Below are positions 4,065-49,390 of a DNA stretch of 53,985 bases, in pieces. A program made the translations under genes and the position numbers. Positions within the stretch are counted from its first letter, which is position 1; every line of letters starts with the position of its first letter. The notes beneath the pieces were generated by a model. That model made no database searches. It was not told the origin of the DNA and saw only the letters and a list, made by a program, of their open reading frames with translations. The stretch is from an uncultured Ruminococcus sp. (GTDB taxonomy: Bacteria > Bacillota > Clostridia > Oscillospirales > Acutalibacteraceae): NCBI GenBank assembly GCA_902802795.1, contig CADCNI010000021.1:1-53985 (forward strand), in the 5' to 3' direction.

Positions 4065-4748
4065 TTATTCCAATCCTTTTTTCTTGAACAGAAACGCCAG
4101 CAGCGCTGTCAGCAGCACGGCATACGCCGCCATGATCGCCGCGAATTCGCCTGTCAGTTCCCCGCCGTCCAGCACGCGGCTGATCTGTCCGCTGTAGAGA
4201 TATCGCGCCGCGCAGTCAAGGCTTTCATTAAACCGCGCCAGCATGGGCAGCAGCGCCGTGACGAGTCCGATGGGTACCGCCATGCCGTTGGCGGCGGAGA
4301 CATTGCGGGAGACGATGCCGACGCACAGCCCCGCCAGCGTGGAGAGTACCGCGCCGCACAGCATGGCTGCCGCAAACGCGGCAATATGTTCGCGGGTGAA
4401 CGCGTCCATGACAAGAAACGCGCTTCCCGTGAGCAGCGTGACCGAAACCACAAACAGCGATACACTCATAAGATATTGCCGTCGGCTCACGCCTGTCATG
4501 ATGAGAGCGCGCAGGGTGCCTTTTTCCTTTTCCTCCGAGAGGATATTGGAGGCTGTCACCAGCGGGGCAAATGACGCGTGCATAGTGGCGAACATCGTGA
4601 CAAACATCCCGCTCATGCCGTCCTCGCTGCCCAGTGCCGTGATCATGACAAAGGCCACCAAAGGATAAATCAGCATCACCATGAGCGCCTGAAAATTGCA
4701 AAGGGAATCCTTGATCTGCTTGTGCAGCAGTGCGAGAGTGGTAGTCAT
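4065..4748 (-). CDS. ABC-2 type permease (cassette 2)
   Basis: A 227-residue ABC-2 permease with about six hydrophobic segments and the conserved stretch SNILSEEKEKGTLRALIMTG, typical of ABC-2 export permeases. Its ATG overlaps the stop of the ATPase gene (ATGA at 4745-4748), so the pair is translationally coupled. It is the last gene of the minus-strand LytTR cassette. It is shorter than the permease of cassette 1 and only distantly similar. Confidence 0.88.
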   Translation of the reverse strand: MTTTLALLHKQIKDSLCNFQALMVMLIYPLVAFVMITALGSEDGMSGMFVTMFATMHASFAPLVTASNILSEEKEKGTLRALIMTGVSRRQYLMSVSLFVVSVTLLTGSAFLVMDAFTREHIAAFAAAMLCGAVLSTLAGLCVGIVSRNVSAANGMAVPIGLVTALLPMLARFNESLDCAARYLYSGQISRVLDGGELTGEFAAIMAAYAVLLTALLAFLFKKKGLE

Positions 4749-10184: not shown

Positions 10185-11594
10185 TTAAAATCTGAAATAC
10201 AAAAAAGGATTGTAGCCGCCGTTGATCACCGCGAGCAGCGACACCACATACAGCGCCGCAGCAACGCATGTTTTGACAGCGAACGCATGGTTTTCGACGG
10301 GGCGCCTGTAAAGGAACCGTCGCCAGAGCGTTTTAACGGCACTTACCGACAGAAACGCGCCGATCAGCAGAGGCAGCGCATGGGCGCGAAAGTAATACCA
10401 AGAGGCGGCATTGGCCAGTCCGTTTGCCCCAAACAGGGATAAGAGATAACGCCAAGCGTTTCCCAGATCGTCACAGGCAAAGATCACCCACGACAGAAGC
10501 ACCGCCAGCAGCGTATAAATATGGGAAACCGCGGCGGGAAGCCGCTCCAGCCGGCGCAGCAGAAAGCGCTTTTCCAGCACCAGCAGCGCGAAGAAATACA
10601 GTCCCCACACGGCAAACTGCCAGCCCGCGCCGTGCCACAGTCCCGTGAGCAGCCAGACGATCAGCAGATTGCGTATCTGCCGCGCAAAACCCCGGCGGCT
10701 GCCGCCCAGCGGTATGTAGAGGTATTCGCGGAACCATGTGCCGAGCGAGATATGCCAGCGCCGCCAGAATTCGGTGACGCTGCGCGATTCATAAGGGTAG
10801 TTGAAGTTTTCGGGGAAATCGAAGCCCAGCATTTTCCCGATGCCGATGGCCATATCGGAGTAGCCCGAAAAATCGAAGTAGATTTGCAGCATATACGCCG
10901 CCGCGCCCAGAAAGGCAGTCAGCGCTGCCCGTTCTCCGTCCTGCGCCGATATTTCATCCCAGAGCGCGCCGAAAGAATTGGCCAGCAGCACCTTTTTGGC
11001 AAGTCCCTGCACAAAGCGGAAGATGCCTGCGCAGGCCTTGTCCGCGCCGATCTCCCTCACGCCAATCTGCGACGCAATATCGCGGTATCTGACAATGGGA
11101 CCCGCGATCAACTGGGGAAACAGGCACACATACATGCCGAAGTCCACCAGACGGCGCTGCGCGGGGATTTCGCGGCGGTACACGTCGATGGTGTAAGAAA
11201 GGGTCTGAAAGGTATAAAAGGAAATGCCGATGGGCAAAGGCAGGCGCAGCGGCGCAAATCCCGTGCCAAACAAGGCATTCAGACTGCCGAGCAGAAAGTC
11301 AGTGTACTTGAAGAAGCCGAGCAGTCCCAGATTGACCGCGACTGACAGCGCCAGCACCCACTTGCGCCAATGGGGCTGCCCTGTGCGGTCGAGATGTTCC
11401 AGCATCAGACCGTTGCCGTAATCGAATACGGTGGAGAAGAGCATGATGAGAACATATACCGGTTCTCCCCACGCGTAGAAAATCAGGCTGGCCAGCAGGA
11501 GCATGGGATTTTTCAGCCGGACAGGGATCATATAATACACCGACAGCACGATCGGCAAAAATGCCAGAAGGAATACCGCACTGCTGAAAACCAA
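10185..11594 (-). CDS. MBOAT-family membrane O-acyltransferase (AlgI/DltB-like)
   Basis: A 469-residue polytopic membrane protein with MBOAT hallmarks: an N-terminal MVFSSAVFLLAFLPIVL segment, FPQLIAGPIVRYRDI, FDFSGYSDMAIGIGKMLGF, NFNYPYESRSVTEFWRRWHI, and the catalytic His in LTGLWHGAGWQF near residue 320. It is expected to move acetyl groups across the membrane to the DHHW protein. The start is TTG 11594, preceded by GGGAGGG with 7-bp spacing. A heptamer repeat pair lies directly upstream. Confidence 0.93.
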   Translation of the reverse strand: MVFSSAVFLLAFLPIVLSVYYMIPVRLKNPMLLLASLIFYAWGEPVYVLIMLFSTVFDYGNGLMLEHLDRTGQPHWRKWVLALSVAVNLGLLGFFKYTDFLLGSLNALFGTGFAPLRLPLPIGISFYTFQTLSYTIDVYRREIPAQRRLVDFGMYVCLFPQLIAGPIVRYRDIASQIGVREIGADKACAGIFRFVQGLAKKVLLANSFGALWDEISAQDGERAALTAFLGAAAYMLQIYFDFSGYSDMAIGIGKMLGFDFPENFNYPYESRSVTEFWRRWHISLGTWFREYLYIPLGGSRRGFARQIRNLLIVWLLTGLWHGAGWQFAVWGLYFFALLVLEKRFLLRRLERLPAAVSHIYTLLAVLLSWVIFACDDLGNAWRYLLSLFGANGLANAASWYYFRAHALPLLIGAFLSVSAVKTLWRRFLYRRPVENHAFAVKTCVAAALYVVSLLAVINGGYNPFLYFRF

Positions 11595-22322: not shown

Positions 22323-23047
22323 TCACTTAGCCGCGTCGATGACGTCGGGCCTCCCGATGTCATCCGGCATCTGATGATGGATAATTTTGACGGTGCTGAT
22401 GGCGACGCACATATTTAATATGCCGTCCGCCAACAGCGCCGAGCCGAGCAGGACCGTCATGACGCGCAGGCTTTCTGCCGGACGAAAGACCAGCAGCAGT
22501 CCGACGGCTCCCGCCACCACCGCGAGCGCCACAATGAGCCACCATGCGCCGATGCCGAAGCGCTTGGCGTCAATGGCAATCTGCATTTTAAACAGCCCGT
22601 CCGCCAAAATGGAAATGCCCAGCGCGATGCACAGGAAATACAGCACGCTGTCGGATTTTACGGTGGTGATGAAGCCTAGCGATATCATCAGAATGCCGAA
22701 TTGCAGATCATACTGAAACTCCAGACGGTAGAGATCTTTAGAGCCTGTTTAGAATCCCTTCGCGCACGTCCTGCTTGCATCTTTTCCGCCATATTTCGTG
22801 AATTCGCCTTGCAATACGACAGTATGGCGGCGGCGCACGCCGAGATTCTAAACAGGCTCTTAGAAAAATACCCCACCAACTTGACCACACCGAAAATCAT
22901 CATGGACACACCGAAGAAATCCACCCACGCGGGAAGCACTTTTTCGGGAGCCGCCATCATGAGCAGACCCACCGCGCAGAATACGGCGGACAGCGCGATA
23001 TATCCGAATTTAGCCACCCTCATGGGTACTACCGAACGAGGTTTCAT
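22323..23047 (-). pseudogene. HdeD-like (DUF308) membrane protein gene disrupted by a MITE
   Basis: Two minus-strand pieces belong to one gene. The 5' piece (from ATG 23047, after AAAGGAGTG) encodes MRVAKFGYIALSAVFCAVG and runs to GYFSK, then enters foreign sequence. The 3' piece resumes KDLYRLEFQYDLQFGILMIS and ends at 22323. Hydrophobic helices in pairs and the internal repeat fit HdeD/DUF308 proteins, linked to acid or envelope stress. The interruption is the 119-bp element at 22741-22859 plus a 3-bp duplication. Removing 122 bp from 725 leaves 603 bp, exactly 201 codons, so precise excision would restore a 200-residue protein. Confidence 0.88.
22741..22859. mobile_element. MITE-like element, copy 1 (119 bp)
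   Basis: It has perfect 16-bp terminal inverted repeats (GAGCCTGTTTAGAATC at 22741-22756 and its complement at 22844-22859) flanked by TTA at 22738-22740 and 22860-22862. It has no coding capacity. It shares an internal core (ACGTC-TGCTTG, TTTTCCGCCATA, CCTTGCAATACGA-AGTAT) and the GAGCCT terminus with the element at 44111-44269. The 3-bp TNA-type duplication would fit mobilisation by an IS5-superfamily (IS1031-like) transposase (inference). Confidence 0.88.
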
Positions 23048-43096: not shown

Positions 43097-43486
43097 TCAG
43101 ATATTGACATTCCACACAATTTTTACTTGCTCATTTTCATCATAGGTGCATTCAAATTCAAACCAGAAATCAAGCGGTTCCCCATGACTCGTCGCCGTGT
43201 AGGTGACAAAAGCGTAGGTGCCTTCGGTCTGAAGAATTTCCATATATTGCTCATCAAACGGGTCAACCACATACGTTTTGCCGTCGTCTTCTGTCCACAA
43301 AGCAAATTGACCGTGCAGCCATTCCGACCATTCTTTGATGCCGTCCGCCTGCGTACCCTGTGTTCCGCACCACGACGAATCAATGGATGCGACTGTCAGA
43401 ATGTCGTCATATTCTTCACGCGAGATATCATTGACGATCACCTTTATTCTCCGCGCAATCTCCGCATAAAACTGTTCTTGTGTCAT
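43097..43486 (-). CDS. Hypothetical small acidic protein
   Basis: A 129-residue soluble, acidic protein. The N-terminal helix (TQEQFYAEIARRIKVIVNDI) is followed by a strand-rich half with Trp/Phe clusters (EPLDFWFEFECTYDENEQVK, ending IVWNVNI). The layout is compatible with an NTF2-like or cystatin-like fold, but I cannot name the family. The start ATG 43486 follows CGGAGGG. It stands alone between the sigma operon and the 43679 gene. Confidence 0.72.
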   Translation of the reverse strand: MTQEQFYAEIARRIKVIVNDISREEYDDILTVASIDSSWCGTQGTQADGIKEWSEWLHGQFALWTEDDGKTYVVDPFDEQYMEILQTEGTYAFVTYTATSHGEPLDFWFEFECTYDENEQVKIVWNVNI

Positions 43487-43611: not shown

Positions 43612-43640
43612 TTGAATTTTCCACCACCAAGTGTTAGAAT
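43612..43640 (+). promoter_or_regulatory. Promoter of the ubiquitin-like/DUF4132 gene pair
   Basis: TTGAAT 43612-43617, 17-bp spacer, TAGAAT 43635-43640. Confidence 0.65.
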
Positions 43641-43678: not shown

Positions 43679-44101
43679 ATGTTGCAGATCAGCGTCAATG
43701 TGAAATCGGCGGCGACAAAGAAAAACAAGAGCCAGACGGTCACCGTCCCCTATGACGAGGGCATTTCCGACGTGAAGGGCTTGCTGGAAGCCACTGTCGC
43801 GTGGTGTGTGAACGATTACAACCAGCGAAGGCAAAACAGCGACCTGCTGACCGCGCTTTCACCGGAACAGATCGAGGACAAAGCGTCGCAGGGCAAGGTG
43901 TCCTTCGGTGTGAATTACGGTGAAAAGGACGCGGTGCTGTCAAAGGCGACCGCCGACGCGCTGGAGGCATTCAGCGACGGCATTGTCGTGATATTTGCCG
44001 ATGACAGGCGGCTGCAAGACCTCGACGAAGCCGTTGATCTGACTGACATCCACAGCCTCACCTTTGTACGCCTGACCATGCTGGCGGGCAGAATGTGGTG
44101 A
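43679..44101 (+). CDS. Putative ubiquitin-like (beta-grasp) protein next to DUF4132
   Basis: A 140-residue protein. The N-terminus (MLQISVNVK, then SQTVTVPYDEGISDVKGLLE) and the C-terminal part (IVVIFADDRRL, then DLTDIHSLTFVRLTMLAG) follow the ubiquitin order strand-strand-helix-strand-strand. IFA near 105-107 and the DI-x-x-L-x-x-x-R-L pattern sit where ubiquitin has IFAGKQL and NIQKESTLHLVLRL. An insert of about 50 residues (49-99) separates the helix from strand 3. The protein ends AGRMW, not GG. AGGAGG precedes ATG 43679 by 9 bp. The resemblance is by eye and unverified. The giant gene downstream is probably its partner. Confidence 0.7.
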   Translation: MLQISVNVKSAATKKNKSQTVTVPYDEGISDVKGLLEATVAWCVNDYNQRRQNSDLLTALSPEQIEDKASQGKVSFGVNYGEKDAVLSKATADALEAFSDGIVVIFADDRRLQDLDEAVDLTDIHSLTFVRLTMLAGRMW

Positions 44102-44110
44102 TTTTACTAA

Positions 44111-44269
44111 GAGCCTATCCCAAAATTATACGCACACGTCTTGCTTGTCATTTTTCCGCCATACTGCGTTGCTTTCCCTTGCAATACGAAAGTATTGCTG
44201 CGGAAAAGCGCCTTGTCTGGCGAAAAACTGCCTGCGCAATCCGCGCACGGCTAATTCTGGGATAGGCTC
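44111..44269. mobile_element. MITE-like element, copy 2 (159 bp)
   Basis: Terminal inverted repeats of about 19 bp (GAGCCTATCCCA-AATTA type, one mismatch) are flanked by TAA at 44108-44110 and 44270-44272. Its internal core matches the element at 22741-22859. It has no open frame of its own. It sits 9 bp after the stop of the small gene and ends 5 bp before the AAGGAG of the giant gene, so it splits what would be a tight operon. Confidence 0.88.
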
Positions 44270-44290
44270 TAAAGAAGGAGTGTATGCAGA

Positions 44291-47200
44291 ATGGCCAATC
44301 CATCTGAAGCCGTCACCCAATATTGGAAGGATTTTTCCGCCCGGAACAGGGCGCAGCTCGATTCGCTCTCAGAGGAACAAACGCAATTTGTCAACCATGT
44401 GGTAGTGGATAATTACAACATCTATCATGTACAATATCCGGTCAGCATTCCCCCGCAGCGCATTGACTGCCTGTCGACCTTTGTCAAGGCGCATTTCGGC
44501 GAAGCGGTGGAGCTGCTGGTGCCGCCGGAATTTGCCGGGGATTATTACGCCATGCTTGACAAATTCAATCAGTTCCAGTATTCCGAAAGCTACTACCGCC
44601 GCAGCTTCCGCTGTTCGGATTATTACAGCTTTTTGGATCGGATGTACCGTCTGACCTATTCGTATTTTCTGCTGGGGGTGCTTGGCTGCACAGCGGAGGA
44701 TATGGACAGCTTTGTGCGGAAGAATTACAAAGACCCGCTCGGCGCGGTGAGAAAAAACATGGGCGGCTACGACGCTTACATCATTGCCGCGCGGATTGAC
44801 GCGGGCGACAGCAAGGTGATCGACACCATACGGGACATGATGACTTCCGAGAACAACGCCGCGATTCTCACGACCGAAGTGATACGGGGCGTGATCTGCT
44901 CATCAGATGACGGGCTGCATGATCTTCTCTGCAAGCTGCTGATAGCGGCGGGGCTTTCGGAGGGCTTGCGGCAGGCGATCTGCGAAGCCGCCGACTGCGG
45001 CACACGACAGGCCTTTATCAAATTACTGACAGTGATTCACGAACAGAATTTCGTGCGCTTTGCTTCTGTCAAGCGCTCCATCGGCACATGGACGGGACTT
45101 GCCCGCTGGGAAGACCCCGACCGTCTCGCCGGAAAAATCATAGAGGGAGCTGTCCGCGCTCTGCAAAGCCGTGAGAACGCCCTTGACATGATCGCGTCCG
45201 AAGACCCGGTGGACATCTATCTCGGACTCTGGGGGCTGGGCTTCTATGACGTGGAGGATGCCATGCGCACCATTCTTGCGCTGACGGGCGTCAACGGCGG
45301 TTCCTGCGGCAGCATGATGCAGCTCATGACGGTGGGCTATTTCTGCCGCAATCTCGAACAGCCCGATGTGACCGCCCCTATCGCTGTGGCGGTGCTGGAG
45401 GCGCACCCGGAGGATTACAGGCTGTTTTCGCTTTTTGACGGCGTGTATATCTTCAACCGGTTCCGCAGAGACAACGCCTCCCGCAACGAAATAGCGCTTC
45501 ATGACGACAAAGCGCTCGCGGCGCGGCATTATGACATCCTGCTCCATATGTACGAAATCATGCCGCACAAGAAGGTGGAATATGCCCCTATCGTTTACCC
45601 GTGGTATGCCAGTTACATGACCAAAAGCATTTTGCTCATGTGCGCGCTGGAAGCCGCCTGCGTCATGGAGGACGATGAAAAGATCGACTTCCTCTGCGGC
45701 AAACTGCCCGAAATAGAATCGGGCAGCCGTGCGCACGCGCTGGAAAAAATCGCCTCCCGGCTTGCCACACGGACGCAGCGGGACACGCTGCTTCAGGCGG
45801 CAGCCGACCGCGAAACCTTCACCCGCAAAAAGGCGGTGGAGGTGCTGAAAAAAACGCCCCTTTCGGGGGAGGAATACGCCGTCATCGAAGCCTTTGCCAG
45901 ATACAAGACCGCCGACCTGCGGGAAGGGGTCATTGTGCTTCTCCGGAACCGCGACAGCGCGGGCATGCAGGAAAGTCTGAGGCGCATGCTGCCCGCCAAG
46001 GATGAAAATATCCGTCTGGCGGCGCTCGACCTTCTGCAATACGCCATAGACGAATATGGGGAGACGGACTTCTCCGAAGAAAAGGCATTGGCAGCCGCCA
46101 TTCCTTCTCCCAGTGAGCGGGAAGAAATTCTGCTGGGCGAGATTCTGGGCAGTCCGGTCAGCGCGGAGGTCACCAAGGAAAACGGCTACGGACTGTATGA
46201 CCCCCATGCCTCGCTGGCGCCGGTTGCCTTTACGCCGGATCTCAGCGTGGTCAGGGATTACCTGTCGATTTCTCCCGATGAGCTGACCGGTATCTATCTT
46301 GCCTTTATGAAGCTCATCGACGACAATGCCGAGATGACCTACACCGACACATCGGGGGAAGAACATCTTCTCGGCACATTCGGAGGCAATTTTTCGCCTT
46401 CCTATTGGCAGTACCGCAACATTGAACCATCCGCCGTGTATGAAAAGATTCCCTGTCACGAACTGTGGGCGCGGTTTTACCGCGAAACCATCCGGACGCC
46501 GCAGCGCTTCTGGGCGGTTTATCTGGAACGCAGGAACGGCGTCAATGTTTCTCTGACCGAAAACGGCAAACTGGCCTTTGACCGGAATATCCGGCGGATT
46601 TTCGGCGAAATCGCGGATACCGATTGCCGGAATATGCTGAAGGAAAGGGACGAACGCTTCGGTCACAGCTACTTCACACAGGTATGCAACGCGGCGCTGG
46701 AAAGCATCATCAGCGAATTCCGGCTTGCCCTGCCGATGGATATTATCCAGCACATCATCGGGTATCTTGCCAAGGAAGTGCCGTCGGAGCAGCTCTGGTT
46801 CGATGTGGTCAGGGAGAAGAACGACACATGGAGCGGAAAAAAATACAACCTTCTCAAAACCAGCCTGCCCTCCTATTTCATCGAACAGATGAAGCTGCGG
46901 CTGCATGAGGATTTTGCTACCAATTTCCTGCTGCTTCACGAGCTTGCCGTCAGAAACGACCCGCTCGGACATCTGGAAAAGGGAGAAATCAAGGAGCACG
47001 AGCTGCGGTTTATCAACCCGCAGATTGCCTATTATATCAAAGCCTGCCGGGAAGGCATTATCAGCGAGGATATTCTTTACAAAACGCTTCTGGAAGGCAT
47101 GGGCATACAGAGAGCGGTCAGTGAGCTTACGCCCTTTGTTTCGGGAATGTTCAACTGGTACAATTACGAAACCCGCGTGGCATTCCTGAGCGTGTACGCC

Positions 47201-49390
47201 GACGAGGGGATCACGCTGGATCCGGAGGAAAACCAGATTCCCACGGATTCGGAGCTGTATCAATTCGGCAACCGCCTCGCTTCCAGACTGATCGAAAAAA
47301 TACTCGATGTGGAACTCAAGCGGGGCGACAGCGAAACGGTCTTTTCCAAAGCGGCCGTCAAAATCAGACGAATCTACGGCATTGACCGGCTTATGGAGAT
47401 ATTGAAGGCGTTCGGCAGCGACACCATCAGCCGCACTTCCTATTGGTATGGCTCCGTCGTTTCCAAGAAGCAGTCGCTCAGCCACCTGCTGAACGTGTGC
47501 TATCCCGCGGCGGACGACAATGCCCGGAAACTGGCCGAATGCATGAAAACATCCAAAATCAAGCCCGACCGCCTCATCGAGGTGGCGATGTACGCGCCGC
47601 AGTGGATTGACATCATTGCGGACTGTCTCGGCATCGCGGGCATGAAGAGCGGCTGCTATTACTTCATGGCGCACACGGCGGGCGGCATCAGCGAACGGAC
47701 GCGGGCGGTGATCGCCAAATACACGCCGCTTACGGCGGAAGAACTCGCCGGCGGTTGTTTTGATGTGAAGTGGTTCCATGAAGCCTATGACGTGCTGGGC
47801 GAAAAGACCTTTGACAAAATCTACAAGGCCGCCAAATACACCTCCGACAACAACATGCACACCCGCGCGCGCAAATTTGCCGACGCCGCGCTGGGCAAGA
47901 TGGACATTGCCGCCACCGAAGCGGCGATTGACGAAAAGCGCAACAAAGACCTGCTGCTGAGTCTGGCGATTATCCCCTCGCAAAACCGGGCGGATATTTT
48001 GCAGCGCTACGAATTTATACAGAAGTTTGCACGGGAAAGCCGGCAGTTCGGCGCGCAGCGACGTGCCAGCGAGGGAGAAGCGGCGCGGTTTGCTTTAAAG
48101 AATCTTGCGGTGACGGCCGGATACTCCGACGACACGCGGCTGACGCTCTCGATGGAGACGCAGCTCGTGCGGGAGCATATGGATTATTTTGAACCGAACG
48201 ACATCGGCGGTTATGAGGTATGGATCGCCGTGGAAGACGGCAAGCCTTCGCTGCGATATACCAAGGACGGCAAGGCGCTCAAATCCGCGCCGGCAGCCAT
48301 CAAGAAGGACGCGGCTTTTGTCGAAATCAAGGACTTCTGCGACAAGCTGCGGCAGCAGTACAGCCGCACGGTGAAGATGTTCGAGCTGGCGATGGAGGAA
48401 CGGGGTTCCTTCGGCTTCGGAGAATTGCTCATGCTCTGCGAAAATCCGGTCATCCGCTCCATCGTGGAGCAGCTCGTGTTTGTGTCGGCGGAGGGTGAAT
48501 TTGTCAGCGGATTGGTCGGCGGCGGCGCATTGACCGACGCTTCGGGTCACACCGTCACGCCCGGGGAGGCATTTGCCCTGCGGGTGGCACATCCCTTTGA
48601 CCTGTACGAGCACAAGGTGTGGGCGGATTATCAGAAACTGTTCCTTGAAAAGGGAGAGAAGGACGGTATCCTCCAGCCCTTCCGACAGGTCTTCCGGGAG
48701 CTTTACGTCAAGCTGCCCGAGGAGCTGGAAAAAGAAAAGTCGCTTCTTTTCGCCGGACATCAGATACAGACATCCCGCACGGTGGGCGCATTGAAGAACC
48801 GCCGCTGGATCGCCGATTACGAAAACGGATTGCAGAAGGTGTACTATAAGGACGACATCATCGCAAGCCTTTACGCGGTGGCGGACTGGTTCTCGCCGAG
48901 TGATATCGAAGCGCCGACGCTCGAAGGGGTGTTCTTTGTCAATCGCCGCACCTACGAGCCGCTCCGAATCAAGGACATTCCCGACATCGTGTATTCGGAA
49001 GTCATGCGCGACGTGGATCTGGCGGTCAGCGTGGCGCACGCCGGCGGCGTTGACCCGGAAACCAGCCATTCCACCGTGGAAATGCGCAAGGTGATACTGG
49101 CGTTCAATCTGGAACTCTTCGGCATCCGCAATGTGCGGCTCGAAAAGAACCACGCGATCATCGAGGGCAAACACGCAAAGTATTCCATTCACCTCGGCAG
49201 CGGCGTGATACACCAATTCGGCGGACATCAGATCAACGTGCTTGCCGTCCAGAGCGGCAAAAAGAGCAAGCTCTTCCTGCCCTTTATCGACGAGGATCCC
49301 AAAACCGCCGAAATCATGACCAAGGTGCTGACCTTCGCGCAGGATGACAAGATCAAAGACCCCCACCTCATGCAGCAGATCGTCCATTGA
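44291..49390 (+). CDS. Giant DUF4132/DUF5724-type protein (MolR/YehI-like)
   Basis: A 1699-residue cytoplasmic protein without membrane segments or obvious nucleotide-binding motifs. The first two thirds are helical, with HEAT-like stretches near residues 480-620 (FTRKKAVEVLKKTPLSGEEY, RLAALDLLQYAIDEYGE). The C-terminal part has the MolR/YehI-like DUF4132 region (about 1290-1600) and an end block LFLPFIDEDPKTAEIMTKVL, DDKIKDPHLMQQI. Function is unknown. In E. coli, yehI lies near MoxR-, VWA- and SWIM-type genes, none of which appear here. ATG 44291 follows AAGGAG. No N-terminal WGR domain is evident. Confidence 0.82.
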   Translation: MANPSEAVTQYWKDFSARNRAQLDSLSEEQTQFVNHVVVDNYNIYHVQYPVSIPPQRIDCLSTFVKAHFGEAVELLVPPEFAGDYYAMLDKFNQFQYSESYYRRSFRCSDYYSFLDRMYRLTYSYFLLGVLGCTAEDMDSFVRKNYKDPLGAVRKNMGGYDAYIIAARIDAGDSKVIDTIRDMMTSENNAAILTTEVIRGVICSSDDGLHDLLCKLLIAAGLSEGLRQAICEAADCGTRQAFIKLLTVIHEQNFVRFASVKRSIGTWTGLARWEDPDRLAGKIIEGAVRALQSRENALDMIASEDPVDIYLGLWGLGFYDVEDAMRTILALTGVNGGSCGSMMQLMTVGYFCRNLEQPDVTAPIAVAVLEAHPEDYRLFSLFDGVYIFNRFRRDNASRNEIALHDDKALAARHYDILLHMYEIMPHKKVEYAPIVYPWYASYMTKSILLMCALEAACVMEDDEKIDFLCGKLPEIESGSRAHALEKIASRLATRTQRDTLLQAAADRETFTRKKAVEVLKKTPLSGEEYAVIEAFARYKTADLREGVIVLLRNRDSAGMQESLRRMLPAKDENIRLAALDLLQYAIDEYGETDFSEEKALAAAIPSPSEREEILLGEILGSPVSAEVTKENGYGLYDPHASLAPVAFTPDLSVVRDYLSISPDELTGIYLAFMKLIDDNAEMTYTDTSGEEHLLGTFGGNFSPSYWQYRNIEPSAVYEKIPCHELWARFYRETIRTPQRFWAVYLERRNGVNVSLTENGKLAFDRNIRRIFGEIADTDCRNMLKERDERFGHSYFTQVCNAALESIISEFRLALPMDIIQHIIGYLAKEVPSEQLWFDVVREKNDTWSGKKYNLLKTSLPSYFIEQMKLRLHEDFATNFLLLHELAVRNDPLGHLEKGEIKEHELRFINPQIAYYIKACREGIISEDILYKTLLEGMGIQRAVSELTPFVSGMFNWYNYETRVAFLSVYADEGITLDPEENQIPTDSELYQFGNRLASRLIEKILDVELKRGDSETVFSKAAVKIRRIYGIDRLMEILKAFGSDTISRTSYWYGSVVSKKQSLSHLLNVCYPAADDNARKLAECMKTSKIKPDRLIEVAMYAPQWIDIIADCLGIAGMKSGCYYFMAHTAGGISERTRAVIAKYTPLTAEELAGGCFDVKWFHEAYDVLGEKTFDKIYKAAKYTSDNNMHTRARKFADAALGKMDIAATEAAIDEKRNKDLLLSLAIIPSQNRADILQRYEFIQKFARESRQFGAQRRASEGEAARFALKNLAVTAGYSDDTRLTLSMETQLVREHMDYFEPNDIGGYEVWIAVEDGKPSLRYTKDGKALKSAPAAIKKDAAFVEIKDFCDKLRQQYSRTVKMFELAMEERGSFGFGELLMLCENPVIRSIVEQLVFVSAEGEFVSGLVGGGALTDASGHTVTPGEAFALRVAHPFDLYEHKVWADYQKLFLEKGEKDGILQPFRQVFRELYVKLPEELEKEKSLLFAGHQIQTSRTVGALKNRRWIADYENGLQKVYYKDDIIASLYAVADWFSPSDIEAPTLEGVFFVNRRTYEPLRIKDIPDIVYSEVMRDVDLAVSVAHAGGVDPETSHSTVEMRKVILAFNLELFGIRNVRLEKNHAIIEGKHAKYSIHLGSGVIHQFGGHQINVLAVQSGKKSKLFLPFIDEDPKTAEIMTKVLTFAQDDKIKDPHLMQQIVH

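Follow-up and report, generated by a model that had tools for sequence, protein, structure and literature searches.

A conserved gene pair of Clostridia and Deinococcus encoding a MoaD-like small protein and a giant DUF5724-DUF4132 protein

In a contig of an uncultured Ruminococcus sp. (CADCNI010000021.1 of assembly GCA_902802795.1), analyzed here as one stretch of 53,985 nucleotides (the window), a gene for a small protein of 140 residues lies upstream of a gene for a giant protein of 1699 residues (Table 1). An original prediction, made from the sequence alone, had claimed these two open reading frames (ORFs) as a two-gene system; both were found where it had placed them and in the same direction, and the ubiquitin-like residue pattern that it quoted for the small protein was present. 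The small ORF is a real gene, as it has relatives of 27–95% identity in Clostridia, other Bacillota, Treponema, a Bacteroides plasmid record and Deinococcus; searches of the small protein gave no Pfam family over the cut-off and no match in NCBIfam or PADLOC.

Table 1. Features of the gene pair and its surroundings in the window
Feature	Position	Strand	Remarks
Promoter-like site	43612..43640	+	TTGAAT-17-TAGAAT; upstream of the small gene
Small MoaD-like gene (ubiquitin-related beta-grasp)	43679..44101	+	140 aa; relatives and profile match to MoaD-type proteins
N-terminal part, residues 1-52	43679..43834	+	putative strand-strand-helix half of the beta-grasp core; MoaD-type match E 0.0021
Insert, 44 residues (53-96)	43835..43966	+	conserved GK(V/I)xFG-like motif; without MoaD match, E 0.25
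C-terminal part, residues 97-140	43967..44098	+	putative last strands and tail ending ...LTFVRLTMLAGRMW; MoaD-type match E 0.0009
MITE-like inverted repeat	44111..44269	.	159 bp; between the two genes; TAA at 44108-44110 and 44270-44272
Giant partner gene	44291..49390	+	1699 aa; DUF5724-DUF4132-DUF7737
DUF5724 region, residues 62-1288	44474..48154	+	E 4.8e-277; PF18991 positions 38-1214 of 1214
DUF4132 domain, residues 1327-1506	48269..48808	+	E 2.7e-36
DUF7737 domain, residues 1596-1697	49076..49381	+	E 1.2e-29

When contigs were searched with the small protein alone, 20 loci were recovered and a giant gene was adjacent in every one of them, two of these giants (L008 and L013) being cut by contig ends. 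The small gene came first in 18 loci and the giant in two, both from Treponema, and as a result of this reversed order the pairing cannot be explained merely as an inherited position. Over 33 other loci the gap between the two genes ranged from -7 to 58 nt (with start codons chosen by us), and pairwise distances among the small proteins followed those among the giants (Spearman 0.90 over 27 loci, uncorrected for phylogeny). Besides the pair itself, no gene cluster occurred in more than two of the 21 loci compared, several of which were ended by contig ends; the MoxR, VWA and SWIM neighbors of enterobacterial DUF4132 genes were not seen there.

The genome surveys gave the same picture from the side of the giant. 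PF18991 (DUF5724) scored over the cut-off in 2 of 150 genomes of the family, 8 of 391 of the class and 7 of 299 of the phylum, 15 distinct genomes in all including that of the window, and the small gene adjoined the giant in 13 of the 15. The other two hold, respectively, only a 773-aa C-terminal part of the giant (G431) and a broken giant that runs to the contig end (G653). Among the 13 paired genomes, the giant frame was interrupted in G593, G799 and G941 and cut by a contig end in G026, while G772 had a degraded giant fragment and a truncated small gene; every uninterrupted full-length giant had the small gene adjacent (8/8), as did every plasmid record with a long giant match (5/5; plasmid hit H6 was set aside). 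A search with the small family matched 6 of 391 class genomes, all of them also with DUF5724, and 1 of 295 order genomes, namely the window's own. We set aside DUF5724 matches below the cut-off in G124, G610 and G808 and a weak small-protein match in G016 that falls inside a long frame. Judged by these counts and by the adjacency, the pair occurs rarely and patchily, and its two genes are tightly linked; the adjacency is strongly conserved in other genomes, and it is co-occurrence that backs the suggestion that the small protein is a partner of the giant. The broken or degraded giants in several sampled genomes (L049, L051, L052, L079 and L080) point to repeated loss. A phage or mobile origin of the pair was considered and rejected: phage records contained nothing that matched the giant, and a search with one peptide pattern for the small protein confirmed no viral contig.

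In Deinococcus radiodurans, DR_A0165 and DR_A0166 (SEP068184 and its DUF4132 neighbor) belong to these two families and are arranged as in the window, 2 nt apart. According to PMC8533742, drA0165 forms a putative operon with drA0166 and belongs to the DdrO regulon, with a radiation/desiccation response motif (RDRM) at -83, and the DRA0166 protein goes up after mitomycin C in an IrrE-dependent manner. In PMC9650054, DR_A0165 is reported to be induced by gamma rays and H2O2; its deletion led to better and its over-expression to poor H2O2 survival, 157 proteins were co-immunoprecipitated with it in all four tag set-ups, and Trx1 was identified as a binding partner. The same paper describes DR_A0165 as restricted to Deinococcus and without an RDRM, and both statements conflict with the sequences analyzed here. 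The exact RDRM palindrome, TTATGCTATTTACATAA, lies upstream in three of the four Deinococcus loci, e.g., in L054 about 80 nt before position 4087, upstream of DR_A0165, and the fourth has a form with two mismatches. Upstream of the window's pair, the best LexA-like and RDRM-like matches had three mismatches each. A LexA operator as a general feature was rejected for the window and for Clostridia, 37 upstream regions holding one exact site (in L077; 0.08 expected); sites within one mismatch were present in 6 of the 37 (2.3 expected), and a LexA-type operator is at most a lineage-specific feature. In L077, which is from the same phylum as the window, the LexA-like palindrome GGAACACTTGTTCC stands 134 nt before the small gene, upstream of position 10848 on the minus strand.

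For the fold of the small protein we relied on profile comparison. Twenty-nine ThiS-family stretches, taken from PF02597 matches, were translated. Four of them were discarded, as three lay on the wrong strand and one was unread, and the remainder were split by us on length (66 residues) into 18 MoaD-type and 7 ThiS-type sequences. When the insert (residues 53-96) was omitted, hhalign matched the small family to the 18-sequence MoaD-type profile with a score of 28.2 (Prob 63, E 7e-5, 63 columns), a value reached by none of 60 column shuffles (maximum 19.0), by the reversed alignment (13.6) neither, and by none of 120 windows of the giant family cut alike (maximum 16.2). All 20 insert boundaries tried gave MoaD-type scores of 20.9–33.8, and the N-terminal and C-terminal parts matched when aligned singly, over 22 and 29 columns, respectively. 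As a positive control, the ThiS-type profile scored 59.4 against the MoaD-type profile, which shows that the relation of the small protein to MoaD is remote. Independently, the published predicted structure of DR_A0165 resembles entries for MoaD, SAMP1 and molybdopterin synthase (PMC9650054). A beta-grasp fold had been claimed for the small protein, and these two lines agree on it; the profile comparison brought up no confident fold of another kind. Several results weigh against the assignment. With the insert kept, the MoaD match was weak (Prob 7.8, E 0.0044), although still reached by 0 of 60 shuffles; the score fell to 21.1 when the ThiS-type rows were added to the profile, and the 7-row ThiS-type profile alone gave no meaningful match to the small family. 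Global hhalign put the cores in the wrong place, a single ubiquitin sequence found nothing in the small family, and the best matches in PDB sequence searches with that family (E 0.62 and 0.46) included no beta-grasp protein. The insert boundaries and the decoys, which come from one protein family, were moreover picked by us. Pfam ThiS was not among the matches for 22 of 22 family members, nor for four of four Deinococcus rows, at E up to 10 with the HMMER filters on. From the profile evidence taken together, we read the small protein as distantly related to, and belonging to, the MoaD-type beta-grasp proteins.

We aligned 36 small proteins, omitting L008, which is almost identical to the window, and L052, which is truncated to 82 aa; L006 stands for three loci of one genome (L003, L006 and L053). 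Lys9, Gly72, Asp100, Gly101, Leu135 and Gly137 are invariant in this alignment (36/36). All four Deinococcus rows end in RLTALAGG, the Gly-Gly end known from ubiquitin and MoaD, and these are the only rows of the 36 with a C-terminal Gly-Gly; the window's protein ends in LAGRMW, as do most tails outside Deinococcus exactly or nearly, with Arg in 30 and Trp in 28 of the 36 rows past Gly137. Because this extension is conserved, a working tail fits better than a discarded propeptide. The tail is divergent in L049, one of the loci with a broken giant. In L020, whose record is named Gastranaerophilales, the small protein resembles the Lachnospiraceae-type rows in its end and in its alignment, and misbinning or transfer is possible.

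The giant had been described as a MolR/YehI-like DUF4132 protein; it does have the DUF4132 domain, but since it carries DUF5724, DUF4132 and DUF7737 together, it belongs to a DUF5724 branch outside MolR/YehI in the narrow sense. A Pfam scan found no match in it to the WGR domain that MolR has. Invariant residues are dense at 1569-1599 (DVDLAVSVAHAGGVDPE-like, over 27 sequences), mostly just before DUF7737. Part of the DUF5724 region resembles HEAT/ARM repeats (residues 480-608, a partial match to the PADLOC model HEAT-ARM_XIII, E 1.3e-4), and a PDB search with the giant family gave at best the helices of GGA1 (E 0.0013), with weak alphaRep and Integrator matches, which we take as helical-repeat resemblance only. 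No known catalytic domain was recognized, nor did Pfam and PDB give a match to a sulfur-using enzyme.

The reading that we favor, and to which we give an even chance, is a stand-alone two-component system in which the giant binds the small protein non-covalently, as a subunit docked through its C-terminal tail. In such a system, the small protein, a MoaD-type beta-grasp domain carrying an insert peculiar to its family, would be held permanently by the giant, the conserved tail (LAGRMW in the window, LAGG in Deinococcus) would provide the docking contact, and the complex would probably act in the response to stress or damage, as it does in Deinococcus. The tail of MoaD enters MoaE, and this is our model for the proposed docking. 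We infer the physical complex, its docking site and any function in Clostridia. Some points speak for caution. The exact Gly-Gly end in Deinococcus suits conjugation or sulfur transfer, at least there; as no LexA-like site precedes the window's gene, the damage link finds no support for Clostridia; and the main text of PMC9650054 mentions DR_A0166 twice, for its gene position and expression, and not as an interactor.

The docking of a permanent subunit competes first with the idea of a ubiquitin-like modifier, which we consider doubtful. In this case, the C-terminus of the small protein would be exposed at Gly137, a ThiF-type enzyme would activate it for attachment to targets, and the giant would serve as ligase or receptor or be itself a target. 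Gly137 is nearly exposed in Deinococcus, where the protein ends in LAGG, and would be so elsewhere after trimming of RMW. The Gly-Gly end of all four Deinococcus rows and the invariance of Gly137 would suit a modifier, as would the ThiF-family matches found in every pair-bearing genome searched (12/12), the long co-immunoprecipitation list of DR_A0165 (PMC9650054), and the JAMM protease DR0402 described in D. radiodurans, on the basis of which a ubiquitin-like system there has been speculated upon (PMC8832034). However, lists of this kind can include non-covalent or unspecific partners, and in PMC9650054 C-terminally tagged baits gave them too; conservation of the RMW extension is not typical of a tail that is discarded; and no third gene, an activating enzyme (E1) included, is conserved beside the pair among the 21 loci. 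The window's genome, which is 98% complete, had a single ThiF-family protein, closest to TcdA (E 1.7e-44, under the cut-off of that model), and no ThiS-family or JAB match, while among the 12 pair-bearing genomes JAB passed the cut-off in 2 and was matched with an E-value of 0.001 or less in 6. Classical conjugation thus looks unlikely in the window's host, while elsewhere it may occur. A bolder form of the idea, a new bacterial ubiquitin-like pathway with maturation at or near Gly137, many stress targets and the giant as dedicated ligase or receptor in place of the usual conjugating enzyme (E2) and ligase (E3), is in our view distinctly improbable; in it, the Deinococcus copy, already Gly-Gly-ended, would serve the DNA-damage response.

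No better placed than that pathway is anti-phage defense, in which the beta-grasp protein would sense or regulate and the giant would be the effector. The rare and scattered occurrence of the pair at class and phylum level and its several broken copies are what one might see of a defense system, and the weak HEAT-ARM_XIII match of the giant is to a PADLOC model, but no PADLOC model covered most of either protein, the small one being unmatched. The lack of matches in phage records described above and the placement of the Deinococcus operon under the DNA-damage repressor DdrO (PMC8533742) also count against defense; neighboring genes were clustered and not annotated, and a defense island was neither seen nor excluded. 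We hold it to be quite unlikely that the small protein is only a chaperone or solubility factor for folding of the giant, with no signaling role. Tight pairing and short gaps would fit such a helper, but peroxide survival improves on deletion of DR_A0165 and declines when it is over-expressed (PMC9650054), although this could act through the giant. Least probable of all is a sulfur carrier, i.e., a thiocarboxylate donor like MoaD or ThiS serving the giant as sulfur-using enzyme or acceptor, for while the matched family is MoaD-type and the AGG tail in Deinococcus is MoaD-like, most rows have a GRMW-like end, the pair has no conserved third gene, and the giant matches no known sulfur-using enzyme in Pfam or the PDB.

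Of known systems, the DR_A0165-DR_A0166 operon is closest to the window's pair, with which it shares both families and their arrangement, and differs by its Gly-Gly end and the upstream RDRM palindrome. With MoaD and ThiS and with SAMP and other ubiquitin-like modifiers the small family shares, by remote profile relation, a beta-grasp core whose N- and C-terminal parts follow each other as expected and whose last strand ends in a Gly; it is set apart by its 44-residue insert with a motif of its own, the GRMW-like tail of most rows, the missing Pfam ThiS match, and the giant in place of MoaE or ThiG, the usual partners of MoaD and ThiS. MolR/YehI and other DUF4132 proteins share DUF4132 near the C-terminus with the giant, in which, unlike in MolR/YehI, DUF5724 precedes it and WGR finds no match; in two DUF4132 loci with a C-terminal match only (Burkholderia and Nonomuraea) we found no small partner (best E 0.11). 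The CBASS Cap2 and Bil-type conjugation systems similarly have a ubiquitin-related fold beside a dedicated partner (cf. PMC10097602), but the pair has no E1, E2 or JAB gene conserved alongside, only two genes being common to its loci.

DUF4132 proteins are widespread and, to our knowledge, have no settled function. With the pair described here, one branch of them gains a dedicated MoaD-like partner and is tied to a tractable organism, D. radiodurans, and the published statement that the small protein is found in Deinococcus only is corrected. Should the tail be conjugated, the pair would represent a ubiquitin-like pathway that lacks the customary gene neighbors; should it only dock, it would offer an entry point to the role of the giant. 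The original prediction called the pair the best candidate for an undescribed system in the window. DR_A0165 and its operon are already published; for the wider two-gene family, no description was found among the matches listed in the open-licence literature of PubMed Central (PMC), and in a term search of two beta-grasp surveys (PMC1779556 and PMC1949818) neither DRA0165 nor MolR occurred. Overall, the conserved two-gene family with a MoaD-like small partner looks real.

It had also been suggested that the two genes lie under one promoter. A promoter-like site does precede the small gene, and its letters recur at this place unchanged in L008, a close relative, and almost unchanged in the relative L009; however, four such sites were found in the scanned 1 kb where 1.3 were expected, and the 189-nt intergenic gap carries an inverted-repeat element of 159 bp. 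This element resembles a miniature inverted-repeat transposable element (MITE), having matching ends (GAGCCTATCCCA) and TAA target repeats; L009 has the empty site, and partial copies are spread over 11 further places of the genome, including 22761-22833 of the window. The element scores as a strong RNA hairpin (z -5.67) and may weaken co-transcription of the pair in the window's strain. Divergent from the small gene is a 129-aa ORF (43097-43486, minus strand) with no Pfam family over the cut-off, a relative of which adjoins the pair only in L008 among the compared loci. Antisense to the giant runs an open frame of 986 aa (45023-47983, minus strand), which is probably a by-product of codon use.

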